Origin: Rhizobium sp. 18065
GTDB lineage: Bacteria > Pseudomonadota > Alphaproteobacteria > Rhizobiales > Rhizobiaceae
Assembly (NCBI RefSeq): GCF_902706095.1
Contig: NZ_CACSJP010000006.1
Span: 124,001-188,000, forward strand
Reading direction: 5' to 3'
DNA: 64,000 nucleotides
Within the stretch, counting starts at the first letter, position 1. Each line of letters begins with the position of its first letter. Below the pieces are notes generated by a model. It was given only the letters and a program-made list of their open reading frames with translations, had not been told where the DNA came from and did not search any database. Below, piece by piece: positions 23,152 to 45,781 of this stretch. A program made the translations under genes and the position numbers.

Positions 23152-23226
23152 GCGCCCTTCGTCTATCGGTTAGGACACCAGATTTTCATTCTGGGAAGAG
23201 GGGTTCGACTCCCCTAGGGCGTGCCA
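23152..23226 (+). tRNA. tRNA-Glu (anticodon TTC), copy 1 of 3
   Basis: A 75-nt gene starting GCGCCCTTCGTCTATCGG, anticodon loop TTTTCAT flanked by CCAGA/TCTGG, T-arm GGGTTCGACTCCC and encoded CCA. Acceptor GCGCCCT pairs with AGGGCGT (G-U at 1-72). Identical in sequence to copies 2 and 3. Confidence 0.97.
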
Positions 23227-23408: not shown

Positions 23409-23483
23409 GCGCCCTTCGTCTATCGGTTAGGACACCAGATTTTCATTCTGGGAAGAGGGGTTCGACTCCCCTAGGGCGTGCCA
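23409..23483 (+). tRNA. tRNA-Glu (anticodon TTC), copy 2 of 3
   Basis: Same 75-nt sequence as copy 1, including the encoded CCA. Start to start distance from copy 1 is 257 bp. Confidence 0.97.
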
Positions 23484-23663: not shown

Positions 23664-23738
23664 GCGCCCTTCGTCTATCGGTTAGGACACCAGATTTTCA
23701 TTCTGGGAAGAGGGGTTCGACTCCCCTAGGGCGTGCCA
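23664..23738 (+). tRNA. tRNA-Glu (anticodon TTC), copy 3 of 3
   Basis: Same 75-nt sequence as copies 1 and 2 with encoded CCA; start to start distance from copy 2 is 255 bp. No clear terminator follows before the convergent recJ stop at 23774. Confidence 0.97.
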
Positions 23739-42864: not shown

Positions 42865-43067
42865 CCAACCCCCGCCTCAGATCCCGCCACCTCATAGAGG
42901 CAAAATTACAGGATTTGTCCGAAGTCTGGAACGGTCGGCCGCGAAACTCAATCGAAGATCGGCGACATTCGGTAAAAAGATAAAATCCCCTCAAATGCTT
43001 AGGGCTTTTCGGCGGGTCAAATACGGCACGGAATGCATGCGAAATGCGCATGGCTTCCATGATAATA

Positions 43068-43102
43068 TTGCACTGCACAAAACGGCGAATCGGGCGTATC
43101 TT
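43068..43102 (+). promoter_or_regulatory. Upstream module A: TTGCACTGCACAA-N10-CGGGCGTAT
   Basis: TTGCACTGCACAA (43068-43080) and CGGGCGTAT (43091-43099) precede the stem-loop RNA. The same two blocks with the same 10-nt spacing occur upstream of the second DUF1127 gene (43928-43959). TATCTT (43097-43102) could be the -10. If so, the first base of the RNA would be near 43109. The regulator or sigma factor is unknown. Confidence 0.6.
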
Positions 43103-43108
43103 CAAAAT

Positions 43109-43296
43109 CAACAAAGGGCAGGCGAAAACAGTTTTCACCAGCCCCGACTGACCGGAAACGGTCAAACCTGCTTCGGCCCCGCACTATCCTCCTCCCGATG
43201 CGGGATCGAATGACCCGCGACACTCCTCCTCCCAGTCGTTGGTCTGTCAAAATGACGCTCACCGGATCCTCCCCCGGTGAGCGTTATTCGTTTTGG
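43109..43296 (+). ncRNA. Cuckoo/alpha-r14-type small RNA with CCTCC anti-Shine-Dalgarno loops
   Basis: Four stem-loops follow one another. A GNRA hairpin TGACCG-GAAA-CGGTCA (43149-43164). Hairpin 1: CCCGCA (43178-43183) pairs with TGCGGG (43199-43204), with CCTCCTCCC (43188-43196) in the loop. Hairpin 2: GCGAC (43217-43221) pairs with GTCGT (43235-43239) around CCTCCTCCC (43225-43233). Hairpin 3: ACGCTCACCGG (43255-43265) pairs perfectly with CCGGTGAGCGT (43274-43284); its loop holds CCTCCC and a T-rich tail follows, so it doubles as terminator. CCUCCUCCC loops in tandem are the mark of the alphaproteobacterial cuckoo RNAs, which lie near DUF1127 genes, as here. The 5' end is estimated. Confidence 0.78.
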
Positions 43297-43579
43297 CCAT
43301 ATCGTTCCCCCGCATTCCGCAAGCCAATGTCGCGCCGCGCACCCTGCCCGCAAGGCGGCAAATTTCGGTGCTGCCATGCCCGGCATTGCGGCAACGCATT
43401 CTGGGAGGCAACAGCCTCAAAAAGCATCAGTTTACAGTCGATTAACCGTGCTGTTATGCGATTTTCGCATGGGTGGTGTGAGGCTTTATGTCTTCAATCG
43501 TTTCGCAATGCAGCATATATTCCGGTCATCGAATTTGAACACGGCGCCGACAGTTGCGCCCAACCCATGAGGCAAGGCC

Positions 43580-43726
43580 ATGAACATCGCTCGCTCGCTC
43601 AACAACTGGCGCAAGTATCGTCAGACCATCACCGAACTCGGCCGCATGTCGGACCGCGAACTGCGTGACCTCGGCATCGGCCGCGAAGACATCCGTCGCG
43701 TCGCCCGTCACGCCGTCAACAGCTAA
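43580..43726 (+). CDS. DUF1127 family small Arg-rich protein (copy 1)
   Basis: A 48-residue protein: NIARSLNNWRKYRQTITELG, then RELRDLGIGREDIRRVARH. This is the DUF1127 (YjiS-like) pattern with the conserved L-x-D-I/L-G-I/L core. Small DUF1127 proteins in alphaproteobacteria bind RNA or affect its turnover and phosphate and carbon physiology; Rhodobacter CcaF1 lies next to cuckoo-type CcsR RNAs. GAGG/AAGG lies before ATG 43580. It follows the cuckoo-type RNA by about 290 bp and may be transcribed by read-through; no independent promoter is obvious. A strong hairpin follows. Confidence 0.9.
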   Translation: MNIARSLNNWRKYRQTITELGRMSDRELRDLGIGREDIRRVARHAVNS

Positions 43727-43765
43727 TTCCGTCACGGCGCCCAGGCGTCGGGCAATTTGATCGGT

Positions 43766-43797
43766 CACAAGGCCTCCCGCTTGCGGGAGGCCTTGTG
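43766..43797 (+). terminator. Terminator hairpin of DUF1127 copy 1
   Basis: CACAAGGCCTCCCGC-TT-GCGGGAGGCCTTGTG, a perfect 15-bp inverted repeat (effective loop CTTG) 39 bp after the stop. It lacks a clear T tract, so it may stabilise the 3' end as well as terminate. Confidence 0.7.
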
Positions 43798-43927
43798 CGT
43801 TTATGTCCTGCCCTATTTTCGCAATGAAATCATACGGCAAGACGGCGGAAATGCTTCTGCCTAATTTCTGCACTCTGCTGCTAATATCGTCATCATCATG
43901 CACAAATGCATAGCAGTCGCCTAGAAT

Positions 43928-43962
43928 TTGCACTGCACAATCTTATTCTACGGGCGTATAAG
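43928..43962 (+). promoter_or_regulatory. Upstream module B: TTGCACTGCACAA-N10-CGGGCGTAT
   Basis: TTGCACTGCACAA (43928-43940) and CGGGCGTAT (43951-43959) lie about 70-100 bp before DUF1127 copy 2. TATAAG (43957-43962) is a fair -10. Block order, sequence and spacing equal those of module A at 43068. The 303-bp gap between the two DUF1127 genes otherwise holds only the terminator hairpin. Confidence 0.65.
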
Positions 43963-44029: not shown

Positions 44030-44173
44030 ATGAACCCGCTTCGCATTGCAAAAAACTGGATGAGCTATCGCCGCACTCTCGCTGAACTCGGCAACCTGTC
44101 GAACCAGACCCTCAGCGACATCGGCATCACTCGCTACGAAATCCGCAATATCGCTTCGCGCTCCTTCCGTTAA
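44030..44173 (+). CDS. DUF1127 family small Arg-rich protein (copy 2)
   Basis: A 47-residue paralogue: NPLRIAKNWMSYRRTLAEL, then NQTLSDIGITRYEIRNIASRSFR. It shares the DUF1127 core L-x-D-I-G-I with copy 1, and the RxLAELG/TITELG segment, but the C-terminus differs. AAGGA lies eight bases before ATG 44030; the reading that starts at 43928 would begin inside the promoter module and is rejected. Two hairpins follow, the second a proper terminator. Having its own upstream module, it is probably expressed independently of copy 1. Confidence 0.9.
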   Translation: MNPLRIAKNWMSYRRTLAELGNLSNQTLSDIGITRYEIRNIASRSFR

Positions 44174-44243: not shown

Positions 44244-44371
44244 GATTCCAGCCTGCCAGCGAGTCTGGTCGTGCATCCAGTGAGCACGCACGGTGATTCT
44301 CGCGCGTTTTGATCCCCGGATGTGTTGCAAAGCATGGACCTGCCAAGCCGCGCCATGATATGGAGCCGCCC

Positions 44372-45781
44372 ATGACACACAGCACTCTCTCCCCAATCCA
44401 CATCATCGGCGGCGGTCTTGCCGGCTCGGAAGCGGCCTGGCAGGCAGCGCAAGCCGGCGTTCCCGTCATCCTGCACGAAATGCGCGGCGTGCGCGGCACC
44501 GATGCGCACAAGACCGACAGCCTGGCCGAGCTGGTCTGCTCCAATTCGTTCCGCTCCGACGATGCGACGGCCAATGCCGTCGGCGTCATCCATGCCGAGA
44601 TGCGGCTTGCCGGATCGCTGATCATGGCCTGCGCCGATCGCCATCAGGTGCCGGCCGGCGGTGCGCTTGCCGTCGACCGCGACGGATTTGCCGAAGCGGT
44701 GACCGCCGAGGTCGACCGGCATCCGCTGATCACCGTGGTTCGCGAGGAAATCGCCGGCCTGCCGCCGGAGGACTGGGACCAGGCGATCATCGCCACCGGC
44801 CCGCTCACCTCCCCGGACCTTGCAGAGGCGATCCGCGCCAAGACAGGCGAGGATGCGCTCGCCTTCTTCGACGCGATTGCGCCGATCGTGCATCGCGACA
44901 GCATCAACATGGATATCTGCTGGTATCAGTCCCGCTACGACAAGGTCGGACCGGGCGGCACGGGCAAAGACTATATCAACTGCCCGATGGACCAAGCGCA
45001 GTACAATGCCTTCCTCGATGCCCTGATTGCCGGCGATGCGGTCGGCTTCAAGGAATGGGAAGGCACGCCCTATTTCGACGGCTGCCTGCCGATCGAAGTG
45101 ATGGCCGAGCGCGGCCGCGAGACGCTCAGGCATGGGCCGATGAAGCCGATGGGCCTGACCAACGAGCACAATCCGACCGTCAAGGCCTATGCCGTCGTGC
45201 AACTGCGCCAGGACAATGCACTGGGCACCCTCTACAATATGGTCGGTTTCCAGACGAAGCTGAAATACGGCGCTCAGGCGGAGATCTTCCGGATGATTCC
45301 GGGTCTGGAAAACGCCGAGTTTGCCCGCCTCGGTGGCTTGCACCGCAATACCTACATCCACTCCCCGACATTGCTCGATCCGACCTTGCAGCTGAGGAAC
45401 CGTCCCGGCCTGCGTTTTGCCGGCCAGATCACCGGTTGCGAAGGCTATGTCGAGAGTGCATCGATCGGCCTTTTGGCCGGACGCTTCGCTGCAGCGGAAC
45501 GCAAGGGCGAAGAAATCAGCCTGCCGCCAGCAACCACGGCGCTCGGCTCGCTGCTCAACCACATCACCGGTGGCCATCTCGTCTCGCATGACGAACCGGG
45601 CAAGCGGTCGTTCCAGCCGATGAACATCAATTTCGGTCTGTTTCCCGAACTGGAACCCGGCTCGATCGTCAAGCCGGAGGGCGTCAAGCGCTTTCGTGGC
45701 AAGGAGAAGACGGTGATGAAGCGGCAGCTAGTCGCTCTACGCGCACTTGCCGACTGCAAGGCCTGGCTCGGCCTCGCATAA
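44372..45781 (+). CDS. trmFO: tRNA (uracil-5-)-methyltransferase TrmFO (folate/FAD-dependent)
   Basis: A 469-residue flavoenzyme making m5U54 in the T-loop of tRNA with methylene-tetrahydrofolate and [24 protein letters not shown] is the FAD Rossmann motif, [11 protein letters not shown] and [28 protein letters not shown] are diagnostic GidA-like/TrmFO blocks, and the C-terminus carries [25 protein letters not shown] 44372 with GGAG upstream is favoured over a reading from 44309. It converges on the next gene. Confidence 0.94.

Follow-up and report, generated by a model that had tools for sequence, protein, structure and literature searches.

The window analysed here, a stretch of 64,000 nucleotides from Rhizobium sp. 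18065, carries on its forward strand a row of hairpins with CCTCC-type loops upstream of two short DUF1127 genes, and the locus raises the question of whether this RNA acts by itself or belongs to the genes behind it, and of how the two came to stand together. Our reading, to which we would give a probability of about 80%, is that it is a standalone small RNA (sRNA) of the ar14 family, transcribed from its own promoter, induced along with both DUF1127 units by a regulator of the LsrB/VtlR type, and repressing mRNAs through its anti-Shine-Dalgarno (anti-SD) loops. The ar14 family, its manner of action, the regulator of its Sinorhizobium meliloti member NfeR1 and the linkage of cuckoo RNAs to DUF1127 genes are already in print; what may be added here are the promoter elements shared by the sRNA and the DUF1127 genes, a history of the locus and a predicted 60-nt leader with two hairpins.

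Identity and structure of the RNA core

The initial annotation, made from the letters alone, had assigned the RNA to the alpha-r14/cuckoo type and had suggested a covariance-model search and a comparative alignment as checks, and we carried out both. The search matches positions 43168-43289 (+) to the Rfam ar14 model (RF02344) over its full length (1-123) at 89.0 bits, against a cut-off of 58.8 (E 8.4e-15); together with the co-varying stems and nearly invariant loops of 37 same-genus copies, this confirms the RNA as a real member of a family that has already been described. The core is composed of three anti-SD hairpins, the third of which is also the terminator. Their CCTCC-type loops are where they had been placed, with CCTCCTCCC at 43188-43196 and 43225-43233 and CCTCCC at 43268-43273; in the RNA the motif CCUCCUCCC is complete in loops 1 and 2, while loop 3 (43267-43273, from the sequence and the Rfam alignment) reads only UCCUCCC, a shortening that sets it apart from the 36 other aligned copies, all of which carry CUCCUCCC. 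Within the window CCTCCTCCC is found at these two places only, and by itself it is weak evidence, occurring at least twice in 12 of 100 shuffles. Folding of 43097-43296 gives -79.7 kcal/mol against -52.6 +/- 4.2 for 200 shuffles, none of which is as low (z -6.5), and produces three hairpins in which the anti-SD motifs are mainly unpaired.

The terminator hairpin (43251-43288) had been described as a perfect 11-bp stem; that perfect core is present, but the predicted hairpin extends beyond it to 15 pairs (43251-43265 with 43274-43288) around an 8-nt loop. The U tract on its 3' side is poor (TTATTCGTTTT), and the hairpin was not listed by a simple consensus scan for terminators. Four ar14 copies are present in this genome; at 89 bits the window copy scores lowest with the Rfam model, the other three lying between 106.8 and 114.6 bits.

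The comparative alignment comprised 37 ar14 cores from this and same-genus genomes, the window copy included. RNAalifold predicts 28 pairs, 22 of which show changes on both sides, and the anti-SD motif is retained letter for letter in 37 of the 37 copies in loop 1 and in 36 in loop 2, as the initial annotation had expected of compensatory stems and CCTCC loops. Paired cells make up 97.4% against 79.3% in shuffles, and the co-variation score is 0.600 against 0.266, a value reached by none of 500 shuffles and compared with 0.03-0.09 when the register is slid; one of the five measures, the number of further pair types, was no higher than in shuffles (44 vs 43.0). The structure tested was derived from the same alignment and so favours itself, but the margin is wide nonetheless. 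A covariance model built from these 37 copies (R1) scores the window copy at 114 bits, as one of its own members, and finds 103 matches at E <=0.01 when run on the window together with the 80 named loci. The ar14 core is a conserved structured RNA in which the stems vary and the loops are fixed.

A predicted two-hairpin leader

Upstream of the core, and outside the Rfam model, lies a predicted 5' leader of about 60 nt (43108-43167, +), its start being placed from the -10 hexamer described below. The GAAA-tetraloop hairpin previously noted in front of the core is present (43149-43164, 6 bp), but it is not the only one, since a second is predicted at 43116-43144. Leaders at the orthologous same-genus loci fall into a short class of about 30 nt with one hairpin (7 of 23 loci) and a longer class of 46 to 72 nt (16 of 23); two hairpins are found in 13 of the 16 longer leaders by our reading of single-sequence folds, and L053, L061 and L062 do not show two simple hairpins. 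In an alignment of 15 of the longer sequences, RNAalifold predicted no pairs shared across the leader region, so that the evidence for two hairpins comes from single-sequence folds, without support from co-variation.

Predicted promoters of the sRNA and the DUF1127 genes

Two DUF1127 genes follow on the same strand: gene a (43580-43726, 48 aa; Pfam PF06568, 58.7 bits), behind which the terminator scan places a terminator with a 14-bp stem (43766-43797, +), and gene b (44030-44173, 47 aa; PF06568, 51.9 bits), itself followed by a trmFO/gidA-type gene (44366-45781, +; Pfam GIDA, 332 bits) that provides a syntenic anchor. The RNA had been said to stand directly upstream of a DUF1127 gene. The neighbourhood is as stated, PF06568 being matched by both genes and the arrangement being conserved, but 290 nt separate the RNA from the start codon of gene a at 43580, and that gene has a predicted promoter of its own.

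An LsrB-type box is present upstream of the sRNA and of both DUF1127 genes, and in each case 44 nt lie between its GCAT and a -10-like hexamer. At the sRNA the box (43038-43051, +) reads TGCG-N6-GCAT, one base off the published TGCA-N6-GCAT of NfeR1, and the predicted -10, GTATCT (43096-43101), lies 17 nt after CTGCAC; the GCAT also begins a composite element, GCAT-N16-TTGCACTGCA (43048-43077), that recurs exactly before DUF1127b (43908-43937, +), where the -10-like sequence is GTATAA (43956). The box of DUF1127a (43457-43470, +) continues as GCAT-N3-TG-N3-T and is followed by ATATAT (43515). On this evidence the sRNA would be transcribed from its own sigma70-type promoter, with a start near 43108 and an end after the hairpin at 43288, as an RNA of about 180 nt that contains two leader hairpins and three anti-SD hairpins; a generic promoter scan found no promoter at the sRNA. 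The two DUF1127 genes would form separate transcription units, and because the same type of box occurs at the same distance in all three units, we propose that the sRNA and the two DUF1127 genes are induced together.

Two kinds of evidence bear on this proposal, the rarity of the composite element and the conservation of the box. Searched throughout the 5.28-Mb genome with TKS in place of TTG, the composite element is found exactly at two places, 5' of the sRNA and 5' of DUF1127b 860 nt further on; once two mismatches are permitted, the count comes close to that of a reversed control (175 vs 141 matches). At orthologous sRNA promoters it is present with at most one mismatch in 23 of 23 same-genus loci (14 exact) and at DUF1127b promoters with at most two in 14 of 14 linked loci (11 exact), these promoters coming from related genomes and not being independent samples. 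Among the best 80 of 578 trmFO loci considered below, 29 named loci have a free-standing first ar14, and the element occurs there with at most one mismatch in 22 (19 exact, counting either T or C at the second T) and with two or three mismatches in four, and is absent from L102, L113 and L141. At the 23 same-genus loci the box in the form TGCR-N6-GCAT stands before the orthologous sRNA in 21 cases, 15 of them with TGCA, and before DUF1127a in all 23; with a spacing of 5-7 it precedes DUF1127b in 12 of 14. Among random 170-nt stretches taken from the window, 0.7% contain it at the fixed spacing and 3.6% at the relaxed one. Over the whole window TGCR-N6-GCAT occurs 11 times where 11.2 would be expected; as the box itself is at chance frequency, the weight is carried by its position and conservation.

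With regard to the regulator, we infer that a LysR-type protein resembling LsrB/VtlR switches on the sRNA through the box 44 nt upstream of the -10. In S. meliloti the NfeR1 promoter is reported to be bound and activated by LsrB at TGCA-N6-GCAT, with NtrC repressing transcription (PMC10746234), and three DUF1127 genes of Brucella melitensis are described as positively regulated by VtlR (PMC12595884). The published VtlR/LsrB consensus, given as GCAT-N3-TG-N3-T (PMC7486931, PMC8844928), is matched exactly at 17 of 23 DUF1127a promoters, at none of 23 sRNA promoters and at none of 14 DUF1127b promoters, the window sequences of the latter two being one base and two bases off respectively; for this reason the LsrB/VtlR assignment is good for DUF1127a, and likely but not certain for the sRNA and DUF1127b. 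In the genome of the window the exact consensus stands 5' of the ar15 model match at AbcR, 61 nt ahead of its start, and also 5' of the two ar14 copies on contig C3 (L001 and L002); a LysR gene adjoins AbcR/ar15, which is the published position of lsrB. In the literature searched, with most subscription journals outside it, we found no joint treatment of NfeR1 and DUF1127, and we do not claim the shared promoter as unpublished.

Linkage of ar14 and DUF1127 within the genus

Seven DUF1127 matches are present in this genome. Across 24 same-genus genomes, this one included, at least 37 of 75 ar14 copies (those over the Rfam cut-off) have a DUF1127 gene on the same strand within 700 nt, the neighbours being sought among 50 of the listed DUF1127 matches, most of them chosen by eye as lying near an ar14 copy, and none on the opposite strand was seen among the matches listed; we roughly estimate the chance of such a neighbour at 0.1% per copy. 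For the other 38 copies no DUF1127 gene lies within 700 nt among the matches listed. The order of the window, RNA then DUF1127, is found in at least 23 copies, one in each of 23 of the 24 genomes, that is, in 22 of the 23 besides this one, the exception (G015) being 84% complete; the reverse order is found in at least 14 copies in seven same-genus genomes. The association of a short DUF1127 gene with a CCUCCUCCC-hairpin RNA, by which cuckoo RNA/CIN1 loci are recognised, is found at this locus. The near-identical copies L001 and L002 of this genome represent a second type: a VtlR-type box in front of them is exact, a fourth anti-SD hairpin precedes the ar14 core on its 5' side, and a DUF1127 gene lies 292 nt upstream.

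trmFO loci in the wider order

With the neighbouring trmFO/gidA-type protein serving as anchor, we examined the best 80 of 578 loci, among which the best named match listed is Rhizobium sp. Root274 (93% identity). An ar14 RNA lies upstream of trmFO on the same strand in 61 of these 80, and 59 of the 61 have a DUF1127 gene too, the other two (L118 and L136) reaching a contig end; no ar14 match was found at trmFO in the other 19. L081 and L082, the nearest two named loci by TrmFO among those listed, have no ar14 match within the 6-kb flank, and DUF1127b and its promoter element are present in both. In one genome (G005, contig C99) ar14 and DUF1127a are about 47 kb away from DUF1127b.

Among the same best 80 of 578, two arrangements recur. 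In 29 loci, whose titles place them in the Rhizobiaceae or among unnamed Rhizobiales, a free-standing ar14 comes first and DUF1127 after it; in 31 loci ar14 stands at most 100 nt behind a DUF1127 gene, with up to six tandem copies (L135). Of the latter, 29 lie outside the free-standing group and are labelled Phyllobacteriaceae, Brucellaceae, Aurantimonadaceae and others; Rhizobium albus (L116) and Pararhizobium haloflavum (L132) count in both. The gap between DUF1127 and ar14 is 243 nt in L140, and in Nitratireductor (L123) the order is DUF1127-ar14-DUF1127-ar14-DUF1127. The Aurantimonas loci L135 (5082-5884) and L146 (2193-2687) have six and four tandem ar14 copies behind a single DUF1127 gene, like ccaF1-CcsR1-4 of Rhodobacter. 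In an AT-rich genome of 2.3 Mb from the same order (L066; G030:C130:29500-34500), four DUF1127 genes are interleaved with ar14 matches, of which the Rfam model gives three at E <=0.001 and R1 two at E <=0.01, as if a DUF1127-RNA unit had been multiplied.

In a midpoint-rooted FastTree phylogeny of the DUF1127 proteins, based on about 47 residues and with local support of 0.75-0.86, DUF1127a falls together with operon genes, first those of L116 and L132 (0.85) and at the next deeper fork those of L123 (0.75); DUF1127b clusters with the final DUF1127 gene of L123 (0.86), in a clade that contains no operon members. In other families the trmFO locus is a DUF1127-ar14 operon, and the intermediate arrangements suggest that the Rhizobiaceae have split it while keeping common control; the ancestral state may have been a row of DUF1127-ar14 units divided by loss in the Rhizobiaceae, a history for which the tree is a weak guide. 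Weak ar14 matches remain behind DUF1127a in L089 (31.5 bits) and L086 (26.5 bits); in the window the corresponding search gives 13.0 bits at 43702-43798, compared with 18.8 for an opposite-strand match. The terminators behind DUF1127a in the window (43766-43797) and in L042, L049 and L055 contain CCTCCC, in the latter three within the loop, which is possibly the trace of a lost second ar14.

This history can be extended, tentatively and with the odds against it, to a functional module. If the first DUF1127 gene and the second ar14 were lost, the sRNA would now stand directly on a former DUF1127 promoter, the sister promoters would remain under the same regulator, and the DUF1127 proteins would be RNA partners of the sRNA in trans. 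Such a module fits the synteny and the promoters, and the service of DUF1127 to the sRNA is putative only. The sRNA appears to share its on-switch with two small-protein genes, and the RNA and the proteins may work together. The short DUF1127 proteins of Agrobacterium tumefaciens are reported to act through PhoR by protein contact, and CcaF1 to be able to replace them, in a study that calls the status of DUF1127 as an RNA-binding or protein-binding domain a puzzle (PMC12501420); given these findings, a dedicated RNA role is no more than possible. Were a single LysR-type regulator indeed to govern the sRNA and two DUF1127 proteins together, and were RNA and DUF1127 gene joined in one operon in related families, the question of what DUF1127 binds would become testable with a natural candidate RNA, and there would be named candidates for the missing protein partner of NfeR1.

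The same locus data bear on whether the RNA is instead a leader or attenuator of DUF1127a, starting at 43108, usually stopping at the hairpin at 43288 and read through conditionally into the gene. This is unlikely, given that a separate box precedes DUF1127a in all 23 same-genus loci and is followed, where measured, by a -10-like site at the fixed spacing, that operon-type relatives have DUF1127 before ar14, the reverse of the order in the window, and that the loops and terminator stem are conserved also in copies for which no DUF1127 gene was found within 700 nt. What speaks for a leader is that the two lie on one strand, 290 nt apart and in conserved order, that the U tract of the terminator is poor and the scan missed it, and that one S. 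meliloti DUF1127 gene is reported to be controlled by premature termination after a small-ORF leader (PMC12218461).

Probable mode of action and candidate targets

As a standalone ar14/cuckoo sRNA acting in trans, the RNA would lower translation of those mRNAs in which the ribosome-binding site shows unusual complementarity to CCUCCUCCC, with targets probably among uptake and metabolism genes; the earlier suggestion of ribosome-site sequestration is most sensibly understood as pairing with the Shine-Dalgarno sequences of mRNAs. In S. meliloti, NfeR1 is reported to block translation by pairing with ribosome-binding sites, its three loops acting redundantly at the translation initiation regions of transporter mRNAs and ntrB, and an ntrB fusion is lowered by NfeR1 and not by the loop mutant NfeR1abc (PMC10746234). 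The pattern GGGAGGAGG-N3-10-ATG occurs at seven places in the genome against none for the reversed pattern, a weak control in that Shine-Dalgarno-like sites are common before genes anyway. Five of the seven sites are followed by frames of at least 78 aa, four with Pfam domains (an ABC transporter ATPase, TRAP DctQ, a GMC oxidoreductase and a xylose-isomerase-like TIM barrel) and the fifth a 78-aa protein without a Pfam match; the other two are probably not starts because their frames are only 20 aa and 1 aa.

Two further candidates were considered and rejected. For ntrB as a conserved target, only AGGAGG precedes the ATG, and the predicted duplex of -11.6 kcal/mol is beaten by 11 of 101 ORF starts in the window (mechanically called ORFs). 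For the DUF1127 mRNAs the predicted pairing is weak, at -7.1 and -4.4 against a background median of -7.4.

The loops of ar14 RNAs resemble the 3' end of 16S rRNA, and the RNA might on that account be mainly a decoy, holding proteins or other factors through its likeness to the anti-Shine-Dalgarno sequence and not pairing with specific mRNAs. Three near-identical loops on variable stems, several copies per genome and a linked protein family that includes the RNA-binding CcaF1 (PMC10253847) would all suit a decoy, but we think it improbable, as the loop mutant NfeR1abc is reported no longer to lower the ntrB fusion or tagged NtrB and NtrC, although for the tagged proteins the effect was small and appeared only in the absence of chromosomal ntrC (PMC10746234). 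That the window copy is a decayed, non-functional ar14 is very improbable: it has the lowest score of the four and the sole shortened third loop among the 37 aligned copies, but it retains loops 1 and 2 and the terminator stem intact, its promoter element has no mismatch, and 22 of 23 congeners preserve both order and promoter.

Comparison with related RNAs

The standalone ar14 sRNA proposed here has its closest described analogue in NfeR1 (SmelC397, Smr14C2) of S. meliloti, with which it shares three hairpins with CCUCCUCCC-type loops on variable stems, a third hairpin that doubles as terminator, several copies per genome and an LsrB-type promoter box, which in the window is one base off the published site. 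NfeR1 is further characterised by LsrB-dependent expression that nitrogen stress induces and by repression of ntrB, whose site in the present genome is ordinary. It differs in its predicted leader of about 60 nt with two extra hairpins and in its shortened third loop, NfeR1 being given as 115 nt (PMC8844928) or as 122 nt by coordinates (PMC7143759). The Sinorhizobium and Ensifer loci L105 and L109-L112 have ar14 at the same trmFO locus, with two copies where the window has one. By position the window RNA is probably the counterpart of NfeR1, a comparison made through these five Sinorhizobium and Ensifer loci.

The cuckoo RNA/CIN1 loci, such as ccaF1-CcsR1-4 of Rhodobacter sphaeroides, likewise link CCUCCUCCC-loop RNAs to a short DUF1127 gene, and the CcsR loop motif is of the CCUCCUCCC type. 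In R. sphaeroides, however, the DUF1127 gene is described as coming first, with the RNAs behind it in a single operon driven by an RpoHI/HII promoter (PMC10253847), whereas in the window the RNA precedes two DUF1127 genes and three LsrB-type promoters are predicted.

AbcR1 and AbcR2 (ar15) are also anti-SD sRNAs of the Rhizobiales that act on transporter mRNAs, but they are of another family and, in this genome, at a separate locus. AbcR1 of S. meliloti and A. tumefaciens and AbcR2 of Brucella are reported to depend on LsrB/VtlR (PMC8844928, PMC7486931), and AbcR is described as Hfq-bound while NfeR1 is reported in the same source without Hfq interaction (PMC8844928). The present draft genome, 96% complete, has a single AbcR/ar15 match, which adjoins the LysR gene (L181, 475-1386 and 1501-1616); at that position two AbcR RNAs are reported for S. 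meliloti and A. tumefaciens (PMC7486931, PMC8844928).

Elsewhere in the window, three tandem tRNA-Glu (TTC) genes with equal Rfam scores lie at 23152-23226, 23409-23483 and 23664-23738 (+), at intervals of 257 and 255 nt.
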